DNA from: Lysobacterales bacterium
GTDB taxonomy: Bacteria; Pseudomonadota; Gammaproteobacteria; Xanthomonadales; Xanthomonadaceae
Reading direction: 5' to 3'
Length of the DNA: 48,442 bases
Assembly: GCA_019510195.1 (NCBI GenBank)
Contig: JAEKKW010000061.1
Location: 1 to 48,442, forward strand
The notes below the pieces were generated by a model, which made no database searches, had not been told where the DNA came from, and saw only the letters and a program-made list of their open reading frames with translations. Both the position numbers and the translations under genes were made by a program. Shown one piece after another: positions 7,986 through 38,891 of the stretch (its first letter is position 1; each line of letters starts with the position of its first letter).

Positions 7986-8014
7986 TTGACAGAGCCTCGG
8001 CAACCCAATATGTT
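7986..8014 (+). promoter_or_regulatory. Promoter of the riboswitch-nrdAB transcript
   Basis: TTGACA (7986-7991), 17-bp spacer, TATGTT (8009-8014). Transcription would start near 8020-8022, at the 5' edge of the cobalamin riboswitch. The position and consensus fit strongly support this. Confidence 0.7.
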
Positions 8015-8017
8015 GTG

Positions 8018-8212
8018 GTTGTCGGTTCCGGTGGTGGATTTGATCGCCGGATGAAAAGGGAAGCCGGTGCGGCCTTGCGAGGCCAATTCCGGCACTGCCC
8101 CGCAGCGGTAATCGGGAACGAACCCGCCACATGCACTGGAGCGATCCGGGAAGCGGCGGTTAGGAGAAGGATCCGTCCTTCGTGCCCGTAAGTCCGAAGA
8201 CCTGCCGACAGC
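8018..8212 (+). promoter_or_regulatory. Cobalamin (B12) riboswitch
   Basis: The aptamer contains the conserved blocks in order: AAAAGGGAAGCCGGTG (8054-8069), TTCCGGCACTGCCCCGCAGC (8087-8106) followed by GGTAA, a CACTGG-type stem near 8134-8140, and GTAAGTCCGAAGACCTGCC (8188-8206). The ends GTTGTCGG (8018-8025) and CCGACAGC (8205-8212) can pair to close it. Adenosylcobalamin binding should lower expression of the downstream class I RNR genes, an arrangement known from Streptomyces nrdABS. Only nrdAB lie downstream in the same orientation within reach. Confidence 0.92.
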
Positions 8213-8236
8213 CGCGCGCCTTGCACGCACGCGCGG
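8212..8236 (+). promoter_or_regulatory. GC hairpin after the aptamer, possible expression platform
   Basis: CCGCGCG (8212-8218) and CGCGCGG (8230-8236) form a perfect 7-bp stem right after the closing stem of the riboswitch. No T-run follows, so it is not an obvious intrinsic terminator. The remaining leader, 8237-8381, shows no clear terminator or anti-SD helix; control could be Rho-dependent or translational. Confidence 0.4.
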
Positions 8237-8381: not shown

Positions 8382-10634
8382 ATGTCCACTTCCCTGCTGT
8401 CCGAGCCGGCCATCGAAGGCCATGCCTCCCATGATCCGCAATTCGCACTGACCCCACCGCACAACGCACTGGCGATGATGGTGACCAAGCGCAACGGCGC
8501 GCGCCAATCGGTTGATCTCAACAAGATCGTGTTCGCCATCCAGCGTTGCAGCGAAGGCCTGTACGCGATCGATCCGATGCGGGTGGCGACGCGCACGATT
8601 TCCGGCCTGTACGACGGCGCCACCACCCGCGAACTCGACGAACTGTCGATCCGCACCGCGGCGTTGCTGACCGGCGAGGAACCGGAATACGGCAAGCTGG
8701 CCGCGCGCCTGCTCGCCGGCGCGATTGCCAAGGAAGTGGCGGGACAGGAAATCCACGCGTTCTCGCAATCGGTGGCGCGTGGACACGAGGTCGGATTGAT
8801 CAACGATCGCCTGCTCGACTTCGTGCAGGCCAATGCGCGCAAGCTCAACGACGCGATCGATCCCGCGCGGGATCTGCACTTCGATTACTTCGGGCTGCGC
8901 ACGCTCTACGACCGCTACCTGCTGCGCCATCCGCACAGCCGCAAGGTGATCGAGACGCCGCAGCAGTTCTTCCTGCGCATTGCCTGCGCCCTCAGTGAGG
9001 ACGTGACCGAAGCGCTGGCGCTGTACGCGACGATGAGCGCGCTGGAATATTTGCCGAGTTCGCCGACGCTGTTCAATTCCGGCACCCGCCACGAGCAGCT
9101 GTCGTCGTGCTTCCTGCTCGACTCGCCGCGGGACACGCTGGAGTCGATCTATGCGCGCTATGGCGAGATCGCGCAGCTGTCGAAGTTCAGCGGCGGGATC
9201 GGCGTGAGTTACAGCCGGGTGCGGGCGCGCGGCGCGCTGATCCGTTCCACCAACGGCCATTCCAACGGGATCGTGCCCTGGCTCAAGACGCTGGATTCCT
9301 CGGTGATGGCGGTGAACCAGGGCGGCAAGCGCAAGGGCGCGGCCTGCGTCTACCTGGAAACCTGGCACGCCGACATCGAGGATTTCCTCGAACTGCGCGA
9401 CAACACCGGCGACGAGGCGCGCCGCACCCACAACCTGAATCTCGCCAACTGGGTACCGGATCTCTTCATGCAGCGCGTGGAAGCCGATTTGGAGTGGTCG
9501 CTGTTCGATCCCGGCGCGGTGCCGGAGCTGGTCGATCTGCACAACGACGCCTTCAACGACGCCTACCTGCAGGCCGAGGCGCAGGGCAAGGCGGTGAAGG
9601 CGATTCCGGCGCGCAAGCTCTACGCGCGGATGATGCGCACGCTGGCCGAGACTGGCAACGGCTGGATGACCTTCAAGGACAAGTGCAATCGCGCCAGCAA
9701 CCAGACCCAGGCGGTGACGCAGCTCGATCGCGTGATCGATCTCAACTTCTACCCGATCGAACCGGCGCGGCGCGGCAACCTGCGCTGGCGCCCGGTCGGG
9801 CTCGGCTGCATGGGCCTGCAGGACGTGTTTTTCCGCAAGCGCCTGCCCTTCGACAGCGACGAGGCGCGCAAGCTGTCGCGCGAGATCGCCGAGACGATCT
9901 ACTTCCATGCGCTGGATGCGTCATGCGAACTGGCGATGGCCAAGGGCGCGCACGCCGCATTCGCCGACACCCGCGCGTCGCTGGGCGAGCTGCAGTTCGA
10001 TGCCTGGGACACAAAACCCGAGAACATCGAAGGCTGGGACGCCCTGCGCGACCGCATCCGCGAACACGGCCTGCGCAATTCGCTGCTGGTCGCGATCGCG
10101 CCGACCGCGACCATCGCCTCGATCGCCGGCTGCTACGAATGCGTGGAGCCGCAGGTCAGCAACCTGTTCAAGCGCGAGACGTTGTCCGGCGACTTCCTGC
10201 AGGTGAACCGTTACCTGATCGACGAGCTGAAGAGACTCGGGATGTGGACGCCGGAAATGCGCGACACCATCAAGCTGGCGGAAGGATCGATCCAGGGCAT
10301 TGCGGCGATCCCGGAAACGCTGCGACAGGTCTATCGCACGGCGTGGGAACTGCCGATGCGCAGCCTGATCGACATGGCCGCCGATCGCGGCGCCTACATC
10401 GACCAGTCGGCGTCGCTCAACCTGTTCATGGAAAGCCCGAACATCGGCGCGCTGTCGTCGATGTACATGCACGCATGGAAGCGCGGCATCAAGACCACCT
10501 ACTACCTGCGTTCGCGCCCGGCAACGCGCATCGCCAAGACCACGGTGGGAACTGCGCCGGAAAAAGCGTTCACGCCAGACGAAGCGATCGCGTGTTCGCT
10601 CGAAAATCCGGAAAGCTGCGGAGCCTGCCAATGA
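8382..10634 (+). CDS. nrdA: Class I ribonucleotide reductase alpha subunit, lacking the radical-cysteine segment
   Basis: 750 residues: N-terminal ATP-cone (VTKRNGARQSVDLNKIVFAI, about 30-120), the barrel with SSC near residue 244 (one redox-active Cys), the PTATIASIAG loop, the YY pair in KTTYYLRSRP that carries the radical from NrdB, and the C-terminal CGAC tail. However, GWMTFKDKCNRASNQT runs straight into QAVTQLDRVIDLNFYP at residues 440-446 (bases 9699-9719). Family members have about 60 residues here, including NLCxEI (catalytic Asn, thiyl Cys, Glu; E. coli 437-441) and the second redox Cys (E. coli 462). The loss is in frame. Without them no ribonucleotide reduction is expected. Start at 8382 follows homologs; an ATG at 8244 would add residues without family support. 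Overlaps nrdB by ATGA. Confidence 0.85.
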   Translation: MSTSLLSEPAIEGHASHDPQFALTPPHNALAMMVTKRNGARQSVDLNKIVFAIQRCSEGLYAIDPMRVATRTISGLYDGATTRELDELSIRTAALLTGEEPEYGKLAARLLAGAIAKEVAGQEIHAFSQSVARGHEVGLINDRLLDFVQANARKLNDAIDPARDLHFDYFGLRTLYDRYLLRHPHSRKVIETPQQFFLRIACALSEDVTEALALYATMSALEYLPSSPTLFNSGTRHEQLSSCFLLDSPRDTLESIYARYGEIAQLSKFSGGIGVSYSRVRARGALIRSTNGHSNGIVPWLKTLDSSVMAVNQGGKRKGAACVYLETWHADIEDFLELRDNTGDEARRTHNLNLANWVPDLFMQRVEADLEWSLFDPGAVPELVDLHNDAFNDAYLQAEAQGKAVKAIPARKLYARMMRTLAETGNGWMTFKDKCNRASNQTQAVTQLDRVIDLNFYPIEPARRGNLRWRPVGLGCMGLQDVFFRKRLPFDSDEARKLSREIAETIYFHALDASCELAMAKGAHAAFADTRASLGELQFDAWDTKPENIEGWDALRDRIREHGLRNSLLVAIAPTATIASIAGCYECVEPQVSNLFKRETLSGDFLQVNRYLIDELKRLGMWTPEMRDTIKLAEGSIQGIAAIPETLRQVYRTAWELPMRSLIDMAADRGAYIDQSASLNLFMESPNIGALSSMYMHAWKRGIKTTYYLRSRPATRIAKTTVGTAPEKAFTPDEAIACSLENPESCGACQ

Positions 10635-11647
10635 ATGCCCTCGTGACCCGCCTGCTCGATCCCGGCTTCGAGCTCACCCTGCGGCCGATGCGCCATCCGC
10701 AGTTCTACGAGATGTATCGCAACGCCGTGCGCAACACCTGGACCGTGGAGGAGATCGATTTCCAGATCGACATCGCCGACCTCCACGCCAGGATGTCGCC
10801 GGCCGACCGCCACCTGATCCACCGGCTGGTGGCCTTCTTCGCCACCGGTGATTCGATCGTCGCCAACAACCTGGTGCTCAATCTCTACAGGCACCTCAAC
10901 GCGCCGGAAGCGCGTATGTACCTGTCGCGCCAGCTGTACGAGGAAGCGCTGCACGTGCAGTTCTACCTGACCCTGCTCGACAATTACCTGCCCGACCCGG
11001 CGGAGCGCACGCGCGCCTTCGCCGCGATCGAGAACATCCCGTCGATCCGCAAGAAGGCCGAGTTCTGCTTCAAGTGGATCGACTCGATCCAGCAGATCGA
11101 TCGCATCGAAACGCGCGAACAGCGCCGGCAATTCCTCCTCAACCAGATCTGTTTTGCCGCGTGCATCGAAGGCCTGTTCTTCTTCGCCGCCTTTGCCTAC
11201 GTCTACCACTTCCGTTCGCGCGGACTGCTGCCGGGACTGGCCTCGGGCACCAATTGGGTGTTCCGTGACGAATCCTGCCACATGGAATTCGCCTTCGAGG
11301 CGGTGCGTACCGTGCACGAGGAAGAGCCCGACCTGTTCGACGACGGGATGAAGCAGCAGGTCTACGCCATGCTGGAGGACGCGATCGAATGCGAGATGCA
11401 ATTCGCGTCAGACGTGCTGTCGGGCGGCGTGGCCGGCATTTCCGAACGCGACATGCGCCAGTACCTGCAGCATTGCGCCGACGGCCACTTCGCCAAGCTG
11501 GGGATGGAGAAGTGCTACCACGTGCGCAATCCGCTGCCGTTCATGGAATTGCAGGACGTGCAGGAGCTGACCAACTTCTTCGAGCGCCGCGTCAGCGCCT
11601 ACCAGCTGGGGGTGACCGGGGAGGTCGGCTTCGATCACGCCTTCTGA
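10631..11647 (+). CDS. nrdB: Class I ribonucleotide reductase beta (radical-generating) subunit
   Basis: 338 residues, ferritin-like di-metal protein. All expected ligands are visible: D74, E105, H108, E180, E214 and H217, with Tyr112 at the E-x2-H-x3-Y radical position. It generates and stores the tyrosyl radical passed to NrdA. It starts 4 bp inside the nrdA stop (ATGA), so it is co-translated. Unlike nrdA, this gene looks intact, which makes the nrdA lesion stand out: either decay is recent or NrdB serves another alpha chain. Confidence 0.92.
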   Translation: MNALVTRLLDPGFELTLRPMRHPQFYEMYRNAVRNTWTVEEIDFQIDIADLHARMSPADRHLIHRLVAFFATGDSIVANNLVLNLYRHLNAPEARMYLSRQLYEEALHVQFYLTLLDNYLPDPAERTRAFAAIENIPSIRKKAEFCFKWIDSIQQIDRIETREQRRQFLLNQICFAACIEGLFFFAAFAYVYHFRSRGLLPGLASGTNWVFRDESCHMEFAFEAVRTVHEEEPDLFDDGMKQQVYAMLEDAIECEMQFASDVLSGGVAGISERDMRQYLQHCADGHFAKLGMEKCYHVRNPLPFMELQDVQELTNFFERRVSAYQLGVTGEVGFDHAF

Positions 11648-11732: not shown

Positions 11733-12506
11733 ATGACCGATTCCTCCCGCCAGAACAGCCTCGCCGATTGGGTGGCCAAGGTGCCCGCGATCACCCTCGG
11801 CTTCTGGATCATCAAGATCCTGGCGACGACGCTCGGCGAGATCGGTGGGGATGCGGTCACCATGTCGATGGGTCTTGGTTACCTGGTCGGCACGGCCATC
11901 TTCGCGGTGGTGTTCGCGGCAGCGGTGGCATTGCAGATCCGCGCGCCACGCTTCAACAAATGGTTGTACTGGTTCGCGATCGTCGCCAGCACCACGGTCG
12001 GCACCACGCTGGCCGATTTCGCCGACCGCTCGCTCGGCATCGGCTACACCGGCGGTTCGACACTGCTGCTCGCACTGCTGCTCGCCATGCTGTTCACGTG
12101 GTATCGCAGCACCGGCACCATTGCCGTCGACAGCGTGCGCGATACCCGCTCGGAACTGTTCTACTGGCTCACCATCACCTTCTCGCAAACGCTGGGCACT
12201 GCGCTCGGCGATTGGGTGGCGGATACGCAGGGCCTCGGTTACACCGGCGGAATGGCGATCTTCGGTGGCCTGTTGCTGCTGGTCGCATTCCTGTACTTCA
12301 CCACGAAGATTTCGCGTACCGCGCTGTTCTGGTCTGCGTTTGTGCTGACGCGCCCACTCGGCGCCGTGGTCGGCGACTTCCTCGACAAGCCGCATGCCAA
12401 GGGCGGCCTGGAACTCAGTCGCTACAGTGGCTCGCTGGTGCTGCTCGGCGCGATCGTGCTGTGCATCCTGATCTTCCCGCAACGGGCCGCGACCAAAGCA
12501 CATTGA
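11733..12506 (+). CDS. COG4705-type integral membrane protein with four internal repeats
   Basis: 257 residues, about eight hydrophobic segments. The motif TLGE/D..(A)D followed by GLGYxxG recurs four times: near residues 32-52 (TTLGEIGGDAV...GLGY), 92-108 (TTLADFADRSLGIGYTGG), 154-174 (TALGDWVADTQGLGYTGG) and 209-232 (AVVGDFLDKP). Such acidic-Gly repeats in membrane helices suggest a cation or small-ion transport role, but the family has no assigned function I can confirm. The next gene starts on its stop codon (TGATG overlap), and a two-component system follows, which probably controls or is part of the same unit. Confidence 0.75.
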   Translation: MTDSSRQNSLADWVAKVPAITLGFWIIKILATTLGEIGGDAVTMSMGLGYLVGTAIFAVVFAAAVALQIRAPRFNKWLYWFAIVASTTVGTTLADFADRSLGIGYTGGSTLLLALLLAMLFTWYRSTGTIAVDSVRDTRSELFYWLTITFSQTLGTALGDWVADTQGLGYTGGMAIFGGLLLLVAFLYFTTKISRTALFWSAFVLTRPLGAVVGDFLDKPHAKGGLELSRYSGSLVLLGAIVLCILIFPQRAATKAH

Positions 12507-23807: not shown

Positions 23808-24599
23808 ATGACTCAGTCTTTCCGTCCCATCGTGCTCGCCATCACGCTTGCCGCCTGCGCCACGGCCGCACAGGCGCAGGAATCTCCGGAAGCATCGGAT
23901 GCGCCGGTTTACGCCATCGGCGCCGGCGTGCAGCGACTGCCGGCCTGGCTGGGCGCGAAGCAGCAACGGACGCAGCCGATTCCGTTTTTCGACATCGAAT
24001 TGCCCGGCAAGGCCGAGCTGTCATCGGTCGATGGTTTGACCGTCGACATCATCCGCGGCAAACGCTGGCATGGCGGGCTGTATGCCGACATCGTCTGGGG
24101 CCGTTCACGCGGCGACCTCGGCCCGCAACTTTCGCCGACGGTCAAGCGCATCAATGATCGCCTGGCCGCCGGCGGCTATCTCGAAAACGAGATCAACAAG
24201 ACGGTGACGGTCGGTGCCCGTGCGATGCGCGAACTCGGCGGCAACGGCGCCTATGCCGACCTCTACACCGACATCACCCTGCCGAAGATGTTCAAGCACG
24301 TCGAGCACGGCATCGAGTTTTCCGTGCGCGCCGCCAACGCCGCCTCCAATCGCGAACGTTTCGGGCTGGATGCCGCGCAGGCCACGTGGCTGGGTCTTGC
24401 ACCGACGCGTCCCGCCGCCAGCTGGCAGCAGGCGGCGTTGCAGTACCAGGTCTTCGTGCCGACCAGCCGGCACACCGGCATCGCCGCCAATATCGAATAC
24501 GCGCGGCTGCTCGGCGATCCCGCGCGCAGTCCGCTGGTGAAAAACTTCGGGCAACGCACGCAGTTGAGCGAAGGGATCGCCTTCGTCTATCACTTCTAG
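23808..24599 (+). CDS. MipA/OmpV-family outer-membrane protein
   Basis: 263 residues: signal peptide to about residue 25 (ITLAACATAAQAQ), then a beta-barrel with the family opening YAIGAGVQRLPAWLGAKQQRTQPIPFFDIELPGK and final strand LSEGIAFVYHF ending in Phe, as expected for barrel insertion. Relatives scaffold peptidoglycan enzymes or are stress-induced porins. It shares a CTAG stop with the convergent LysR gene. The 139-bp divergent gap to the HAD operon holds an AT-rich patch near 23749-23755 but no clear promoter. Confidence 0.82.
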   Translation: MTQSFRPIVLAITLAACATAAQAQESPEASDAPVYAIGAGVQRLPAWLGAKQQRTQPIPFFDIELPGKAELSSVDGLTVDIIRGKRWHGGLYADIVWGRSRGDLGPQLSPTVKRINDRLAAGGYLENEINKTVTVGARAMRELGGNGAYADLYTDITLPKMFKHVEHGIEFSVRAANAASNRERFGLDAAQATWLGLAPTRPAASWQQAALQYQVFVPTSRHTGIAANIEYARLLGDPARSPLVKNFGQRTQLSEGIAFVYHF

Positions 24600-25501
24600 T
24601 CGTTGTCGATCGCCGCGAAGCGTTCGGCCAGGAAATCGATCAACGCGCGCACCGACGGCAGCAGGCCGCGTCGCGACGGGAACACCGCGTGGACGATTTC
24701 CGCGCGTGGCGCCCAGCCTTCCAGCACATGCTGCAAACGACCCTGCGCGACCAGTTCCTGCGTCACCATCTTCGGCAGTTGCACGATGCCGACGCCGGCA
24801 ATCGCGGCATCGCGCAGCGCCAACATCCCGCGGGTGACAAAACGCGGCTGGTGATGAATCGCAACGTGTTCGCCATCGGGGCCGTGCAGGTCCCAGACGT
24901 GCAGGTTCTGCGGCAGGCCGAGATCCATGCTCGGATAGTTCATCAATTCGCCGGGCGACGCCGGCTGGCCGAGGCGCGCCAGCAACACCGGGCTCGCGAC
25001 CAGGCATTGCGTGCGCGTCGCCAGCACGCGCAGCACCAGATCGGAATCCTCCAGTGGCGGCGGCCGCACCCGAATCGCGATGTCGACGCCTTCACCGATC
25101 ACGTCGACGCGGCGATTGGTGGCATCGAGATGCAGTTCGACCTGCGGATACAGGCGCAGGAAATCGGACACCATCGCCCCGACCTGGGCATCGAGCAATG
25201 TCGTCGGGCAACTCATGCGCACCACGCCGCGCGGTTCGGCCTGGTCGCGCTGGATCGCCTCCTCGGCGGCACGCGCTTCCACCAGCGCCGCACGGGCGTG
25301 CCCGTAATAGGTCTGGCCCGGTTCGGTCACCGCGAACTTGCGGCTCGAGCGCTGGATCAGGCGCACGCCCAGCCGCGATTCCAGCAGGGCGACGCGCCGG
25401 CTCAGCTTGGACTTGGGGATGCCCAGCGCCCGGCCGGCCGGGGCGAAGCCACCGTGGTCGACCACCTGGACGAAGTAGTAGAGGTCGTTGAGGTCCTGCA
25501 T
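24596..25501 (-). CDS. LysR-family transcriptional regulator
   Basis: 301 residues: N-terminal winged helix (LNDLYYFVQVVDHGGFAPAGRALGIPKSKLSRRVALLESRLG), then the two-lobed effector domain. The MxDLNDLYYF start fits ATG 25499-25501, though an ATG at 25511-25513 is in frame. It is divergent from the pirin gene, the usual position for a LysR protein that controls its neighbour. Confidence 0.88.
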   Translation of the reverse strand: MQDLNDLYYFVQVVDHGGFAPAGRALGIPKSKLSRRVALLESRLGVRLIQRSSRKFAVTEPGQTYYGHARAALVEARAAEEAIQRDQAEPRGVVRMSCPTTLLDAQVGAMVSDFLRLYPQVELHLDATNRRVDVIGEGVDIAIRVRPPPLEDSDLVLRVLATRTQCLVASPVLLARLGQPASPGELMNYPSMDLGLPQNLHVWDLHGPDGEHVAIHHQPRFVTRGMLALRDAAIAGVGIVQLPKMVTQELVAQGRLQHVLEGWAPRAEIVHAVFPSRRGLLPSVRALIDFLAERFAAIDND

Positions 25502-38710: not shown

Positions 38711-38891
38711 GGTTCCTCCGCCGTGCCGATGCGGCGGAACGGCCTTGAACCCAGGGTTCAAGTGGAAGCGCTTGGCGGCCTTCGGGCTTTCCGAACGTGG
38801 CGGACATGCACGCCCGGCCGCTTCACATTCCCGATGTCGTTCTTAAGGGACAAGGCGAATGTTTGCACGCTGTCGAGCACAGCAGAGGAAG
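38711..38891 (-). ncRNA. ssrS: 6S RNA
   Basis: Between zapA and the cyclo-ligase gene, the canonical place. Read on the minus strand the segment begins TTCCTCTGCTGTG and ends CGGCGGAGGAACC, so the ends pair as the closing stem. Near the 3' side the conserved TTGAACCCTGGGTTCAAG hairpin (38742-38759) matches the corresponding block of E. coli 6S RNA, followed by a GCCGCATCGGCACGGCGG stem. The RNA binds sigma-70 RNA polymerase and mimics an open promoter. Length about 181 nt is typical. Ends are approximate. Confidence 0.9.

Follow-up and report, generated by a model that had tools for sequence, protein, structure and literature searches.

The window that we analysed is a stretch of 48,442 nucleotides, contig C120 of a draft genome of 2.19 Mb in 149 contigs that is 90.4% complete and 0.12% contaminated, is presumably metagenome-assembled and has Lysobacteraceae as its relatives. 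It carries on its forward strand the genes for both subunits of a class I ribonucleotide reductase. The alpha-subunit gene nrdA (8382..10634, with 8382 as the probable start codon) has 750 codons without an internal segment of 55 codons, and was assigned from PF03477, PF00317 and PF02867, from NCBIfam NrdE_NrdA and from alignment to E. coli and relatives. The beta-subunit gene nrdB (10631..11647), whose start overlaps the end of nrdA by 4 nt, is intact, as indicated by PF00268 and by conserved metal-ligand and radical-Tyr positions. Just upstream, in the nrdA leader, lies a cobalamin (B12) riboswitch aptamer at 8006..8223 on the same strand, which the preliminary description of this DNA did not contain. 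It matches the Rfam model RF00174 over its full length (1-189) with 119.6 bits, against a gathering score of 31.5.

Compared with its relatives, NrdA has an in-frame gap of exactly 165 nt, or 55 codons, at the junction 9706/9707. The reading frame runs across this junction as KDKCNRASNQT followed directly by QAVTQLDRVIDLNFYP with no stop codon, while the nearest relative continues across the same site as ETVRQAV, with the segment present. The ATP cone (PF03477), the N-terminal helical domain (PF00317) and the barrel (PF02867) are all found above cut-off, the barrel being split in two: the model is matched in two pieces, 1-202 and 256-523, showing that positions 203-255 are absent. The frame, the split Pfam match and the alignments thus confirm the earlier observation that NRASNQT runs straight into QAVTQLDRVID and that the radical-cysteine segment is missing; its size, then put at about 60 residues or 180 bp, is slightly smaller.

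The alignment places the counterparts of E. coli K-12 NrdA N437, C439, E441 and C462 all inside the missing segment. The NLCxE motif expected of a catalytic class I NrdA (the thiyl-radical Cys with its Asn and Glu) is therefore lost together with the second redox Cys, in agreement with the preliminary description: in the active-site redox pair (C225/C462 in E. coli), the C225 counterpart is kept as C243 and the C462 counterpart is missing. Because these four counterparts are absent, NrdA as written would not be able to carry out ribonucleotide reduction. The remainder of the protein is in frame, as had been described, and retains the Tyr-Tyr radical relay (Y707/Y708, corresponding to E. coli Y730/Y731). 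At the C-terminus, the counterpart of C759 is kept as C749 and the C754 position aligns to a Glu; the tail nonetheless ends in CGAC (746-749, with C746 and C749). The description of nrdB was equally accurate, since all ten checked positions are conserved (the counterparts of D84, E115, H118, Y122, E204, E238, H241, W48, D237 and Y356), with the diiron ligands and the radical Tyr at D74, E105, H108, Y112, E180, E214 and H217 in its own numbering. We take the mapped NrdA and NrdB residues to have the roles given here.

The comparison with relatives, named beforehand as the refuting test, showed that relatives do have the missing segment. In a survey of 201 loci in total, NLCxE was kept at 80 of 80 loci on genome contigs (those kept from the 499 relatives found) and at 27 of 29 loci of a separate set of relatives, which overlaps the first; the remaining two loci have no alignment over the site, one being a gene cut by its contig (L029) and the other a remnant in the genus-mate G002 (L032), described below. 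The gapped form was thus present in none of the 107 site-covering relatives' loci, counted over overlapping sets. The four nearest relatives all keep the segment, with a protein identity of 93-97% before the gap and 87-92% after it. Among viral loci, NLCxE was kept in 67 of 72, two being partial and three interrupted. A gap characteristic of the clade or of phage NrdA is ruled out by these 80 genomic and 67 viral loci, and outside this assembly nothing supports a natural NrdA that lacks the radical cysteine. In the three interrupted viral genes (L163, L184 and L186), roughly 1-1.2 kb is inserted at the NLC site, and the insertions look like inteins.

We then consider where the segment could have gone. 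A 211-base query spanning it gave no match longer than 34 bases in the organism's own assembly, so that no second copy was found there; at a cut-off of E 10 the search returned 42 matches, with 40 scored out of 68 candidates from a first look, and the two best matches were the two flanks of the gap, 9684-9706 and 9707-9729. Relocation of the segment or a split gene finds no support in this search of the assembly. Collapse at a repeat is ruled out, there being no direct repeat at the junction (9706..9707, forward strand) and, by alignment to relatives, a microhomology of about 2 nt, if the relatives stand for the ancestor. Nor is there support for a collapse of DNA common to co-resident species, as the DNA of the deleted block is of average conservation (identity 0.904 vs a window mean of 0.900). 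Within the window, nrdA is the one gene with a gap of at least 30 residues against all three relatives compared. A deletion confined to nrdA is therefore true of the window, but further gapped genes appear in a larger sample of the same draft.

This sample consisted of parts of 22 contigs (584 kb), compared with 1.66 Mb of the relative G007, of which 410 kb could be aligned. Defining a clean gap as one whose short side retains at most 40 nt, the nucleotide comparison found 26 clean gaps in this genome versus 8 in G007. An automatic coding test placed 4 of the 26 inside genes and missed those in coxB and in a comM-like gene. At the protein level, a scan of 254 gene matches detected 12 internal-gap events in this genome, 8 of them with strongly conserved flanks and the other four being nrdA, which BLAST divided into two events, the comM-like gene and a further event on contig C144. 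The reverse scan of G007 gave two events in 257 gene matches, both weak and neither strong, and the other controls, which were small, gave no strong events either (0 of 39 with one weak event in G008, 0 of 37 in G005 and 0 of 30 in G002). Together with nrdA, the strong events amount to 9 of 254 against 0 of 257 (Fisher p = 0.0017). Of the eight strong events, three (48, 48 and 78 nt) fall in linkers or in what are probably upstream extensions and could be of natural origin; leaving out these doubtful cases, six conserved-core cases remain (6/254 vs 0/257, p = 0.015).

The gaps differ in size and in frame. Those in frame affect topA (C138:24190, 519 nt, in the C-terminal repeats), coxB (C81:49469, 210 nt, within the periplasmic domain) and a YkuD L,D-transpeptidase gene (C139:42276, 96 nt, removing HGC). 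Out of frame are those in rsgA (C81:94550, 53 nt) and in a large histidine kinase gene (C2:69432, 161 nt), as well as two found by eye in the nucleotide comparison, in genes which we presume to be glutaredoxin-like (C81:90210, net 130 nt) and comM-like (C81:8047, about 104 nt, with a 7-nt repeat). Six junctions were read: homology is 0-3 nt in nrdA, topA, coxB and the kinase gene and 7 nt in the comM-like gene, and the glutaredoxin-like gene has a 4-nt insert. Six lost stretches sought in the 584-kb sample were not found elsewhere in it, and the lost topA stretch returned a single match in the whole assembly, of 54 bases at 81%. No unusual GC was seen in the six lost stretches measured. Other marks of degeneration are at background level: frameshifted genes are not in excess (3 of 221 here vs 5 of 219 in reverse), internal stops occur in 25 genes here vs 23 in reverse, and the pairwise dN/dS values of ten gap-bearing genes fall between percentiles 26 and 89 of 269 genes, none standing out. 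From natural gene decay we would expect frameshifts and stops before many mid-sized deletions, and the spectrum of gaps without an excess of frameshifts would be unlike this. Clean, recent-looking gaps of mixed frame without other decay fit a technical cause, although they could alternatively reflect a burst of real recent deletions.

To assess decay in nrdA itself, we fitted a codon model to six taxa and 729 codons, with the tree from iqtree2. The branch leading to this nrdA has an omega of 0.052, compared to 0.044 in the background (p = 0.58), and the share of this branch evolving neutrally is at most 4.3%; for nrdB, with four taxa, the upper bound is 13%. NrdA shows no private changes at columns otherwise invariant among 92 NrdA sequences, and NrdB shows two among 47 sequences, where the highest count is five. 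Over the whole of NrdA, four residues are unique to this sequence, compared with 1, 2, 2 and 6 such residues in four relatives and a median of 3. After the gap there is somewhat more amino-acid change, with a pairwise dN of about 0.037-0.043 vs 0.019-0.026 among three sisters; these changes are mostly at variable sites, and the branch model is not significant (p = 0.53). The codon model, the invariant-column counts and the pairwise counts thus show no relaxed selection in nrdA or nrdB, and a decayed pseudogene is rejected on the omega values and the lack of private changes.

We investigated the riboswitch and the B12-dependent class II reductase NrdJ across 17 genomes of the genus, whose relatedness means that cases of co-occurrence are not independent. 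An above-cut-off riboswitch precedes nrdA in nine of them (G000, G003, G004, G005, G007, G008, G012, G015 and G016), and eight of these nine also have nrdJ, G000 its first part only; the ninth, G015 (86% complete), did not show nrdJ. Five genomes (G001, G006, G009, G010 and G013) have a whole nrdA without such a riboswitch, apart from a sub-threshold match in G009, and in these five the nrdJ search matched nothing beyond nrdA itself. In the other three (G002, G011 and G014), a complete or partial nrdJ is present and a complete nrdA is lacking. Such a distribution would be expected if B12 turned the B12-independent enzyme off whenever NrdJ is able to function; that B12 represses nrdAB is predicted from other bacteria. 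In the present genome, nrdJ starts at C65:12863 and is matched over 280 of 717 residues with 97% identity up to the contig end; its remainder was not found in the assembly, and no class III reductase gene nrdD was found in this genome. A second cobalamin riboswitch precedes btuB, and CbiC, the one marker of B12 synthesis that was searched, is absent in all 17 genomes. In three fragmented genomes of the genus nrdJ is cut off, at the end of L034, at the start of C107 in G002 and on C132 in G011 (280, 197 and 399 of 717 residues, respectively), the cut coinciding with a contig end in the first two.

Loss of nrdAB is real in some members of the genus. G002 holds a decayed remnant (L032 1501-2240; L226 3118-4514) with several deletions, flanked by genes which we take to be dsbA-like and COG4705-like: the dsbA-like gene leads into part of nrdA, the frame is disrupted by another deletion, and after this come the last ~130 residues of nrdB. 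Its nrdA piece has four never-seen residues in 85, compared to 0.24 on average and at most 5 in the others at the same columns, and three of these four fall at columns where all 92 NrdA agree; its nrdB piece has seven in 128 (mean of the others 1.2, maximum 9). No nrdA or nrdB was found in G014, a single contig with 100% completeness, or in G011, which is 83% complete, and both have nrdJ. This remnant and these absences therefore establish the loss firmly for G002, for G014 and, within an incomplete genome, for G011.

Given these results, we consider, with a probability of about 0.6, that the nrdA gap is an assembly-specific deletion with a technical cause. We infer a technical source and favour an assembly fault because no examined relative shares the gap and because the same draft has similar clean gaps in conserved genes. 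The nrdA gap would belong to a group of clean internal deletions, ~50-520 nt long, that are particular to this draft, and the likeliest source would be the assembly step, through a join across a short unassembled stretch or through a chimeric or minority molecule; since plain repeat collapse is excluded, some such molecule or gap-closing join is needed. The earlier proposal of an assembly collapse is thus the best supported of those made at the time, by the similar gaps in other conserved genes, except that the ~2 nt of homology excludes collapse at a repeat. The nrdA actually carried by the organism would then encode a normal class Ia NrdA that has the NLCxE segment and acts together with NrdB; the pair would be the B12-independent reductase under the B12 riboswitch, produced during B12 shortage and repressed when B12 is available and NrdJ is able to function. 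Against an assembly fault, the automatic test flagged only 4 of the 26 clean gaps as inside genes, and an excess outside genes would fit real deletions; it could also be argued that most of the affected genes are dispensable in part. The larger number of clean gaps in this genome than in G007 (26 vs 8 in the sample) speaks for a possible though less probable explanation, a real and very recent loss-of-function deletion: 165 nt of an nrdA silenced by its riboswitch wherever B12 is available would have been lost by illegitimate deletion and gone unselected while NrdJ supplied deoxyribonucleotides, as the beginning of a loss already complete in other lineages of the genus. The riboswitch before nrdA, the nrdJ start (97% identity, 280/717) without a detected class III nrdD, btuB behind a second riboswitch with CbiC absent in 17 of 17 genomes, and the genus-mates G014 and G011 with nrdJ and no nrdA or nrdB, beside the G002 remnant with its several deletions, one out of frame, are all consistent with it. 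Selection is nevertheless not relaxed in either gene, so the deletion must date from the final few percent of the branch; equally recent deletions would be needed in several other conserved genes; frameshifts are not in excess; and nrdJ itself is seen only as 280 of 717 residues up to a contig end. Accordingly, the earlier suggestion of a dead enzyme backed by a class II reductase is permitted by the nrdJ start, the riboswitch and the losses in genus-mates, but finds no decay in nrdA or nrdB. We hold it only tentatively that the gap is real and catches the lineage just as it begins to lose its B12-independent reductase, in parallel with the nrdAB losses in the genus. Part of the same tentative reading is a loss series from intact (G005, G007 and G008) through freshly broken (here) and remnant (G002) to gone (G014 and apparently G011).

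Two further explanations are improbable. Intact and deleted nrdA alleles might coexist in the population, the assembler having kept the short path; bubble removal would leave no contig holding the segment, as is the case, and an nrdA under purifying selection fits too, but polymorphism alone does not explain the other gaps, and we consider it unlikely. Still less likely is that the NrdA-like protein is functional and has taken on a new role outside catalysis, for example nucleotide sensing through the intact ATP cone together with NrdB. The open frame, the low omega and the retention of ATP cone, barrel ends, YY pair, tail and NrdB would be compatible with such a role; the gap, however, removes part of the core of the barrel domain, gaps of this kind also occur in other genes of the draft, and the form is found at none of the 107 site-covering loci (overlapping sets). 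The idea of another role for the protein, raised in the preliminary description, is therefore left without support. If the gap were real, it would represent a dated first step in losing a B12-independent enzyme under riboswitch silencing, and the bacterium's DNA synthesis would depend on imported B12. If it is technical, which we think likelier, it is a warning that a draft of ~90% completeness and 0.1% contamination can carry clean in-frame losses of catalytic segments, and that such losses hit several conserved genes and mimic dead or new enzymes when a single gene is read alone. The biology that survives is ordinary: a class Ia reductase that follows a B12 riboswitch, coexists with NrdJ and has been lost repeatedly within one genus.

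The class Ia NrdAB of Lysobacteraceae shares with the present locus the gene order, the ATP cone, the barrel, the radical-relay Tyr pair, the C-terminal cysteines and the NrdB ligands; among the genomes examined, the 55-residue catalytic segment is absent only from this assembly. In the portions of the literature on RNR, metE loss, Lysobacteraceae NrdJ and assembly errors that were consulted, no report of this nrdA gap was found. The arrangement itself has a precedent in Streptomyces coelicolor, where, according to PMC4991794, which cites Borovok 2006, a B12 riboswitch controls nrdABS and NrdJ is also present. Both cases place a cobalamin riboswitch before class Ia nrdAB in genomes holding NrdJ, whereas here the host belongs to Lysobacteraceae and riboswitch control is predicted from sequence. 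For delta-proteobacteria, PMC545781 places the B12-independent isozyme NrdDG under B12 elements and predicts it to be silent in the presence of B12, with NrdJ in use; the predicted shut-off of a B12-independent reductase by B12 is common to both, with NrdDG there and class Ia here. In B12-using microalgae, as PMC8123684 reports, metE was lost through lasting repression by B12. The loss of a repressed B12-independent isozyme is shared with that case, which concerns a methionine synthase in eukaryotes; here the loss is firm for G002, G014 and G011 (incomplete), and not for this genome.

Elsewhere in the window, a gene at 11873, presumably for a COG4705-like membrane protein, lacks 12-13 residues compared with G005 and G007, with no such gap listed against G008. 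At 24597-24606, about 4 kb of G005 and G008 (3.3 kb in G002) is missing both here and in G007. A 6S RNA is encoded on the reverse strand at 38711-38891 (RF00013, 83.4 bits).
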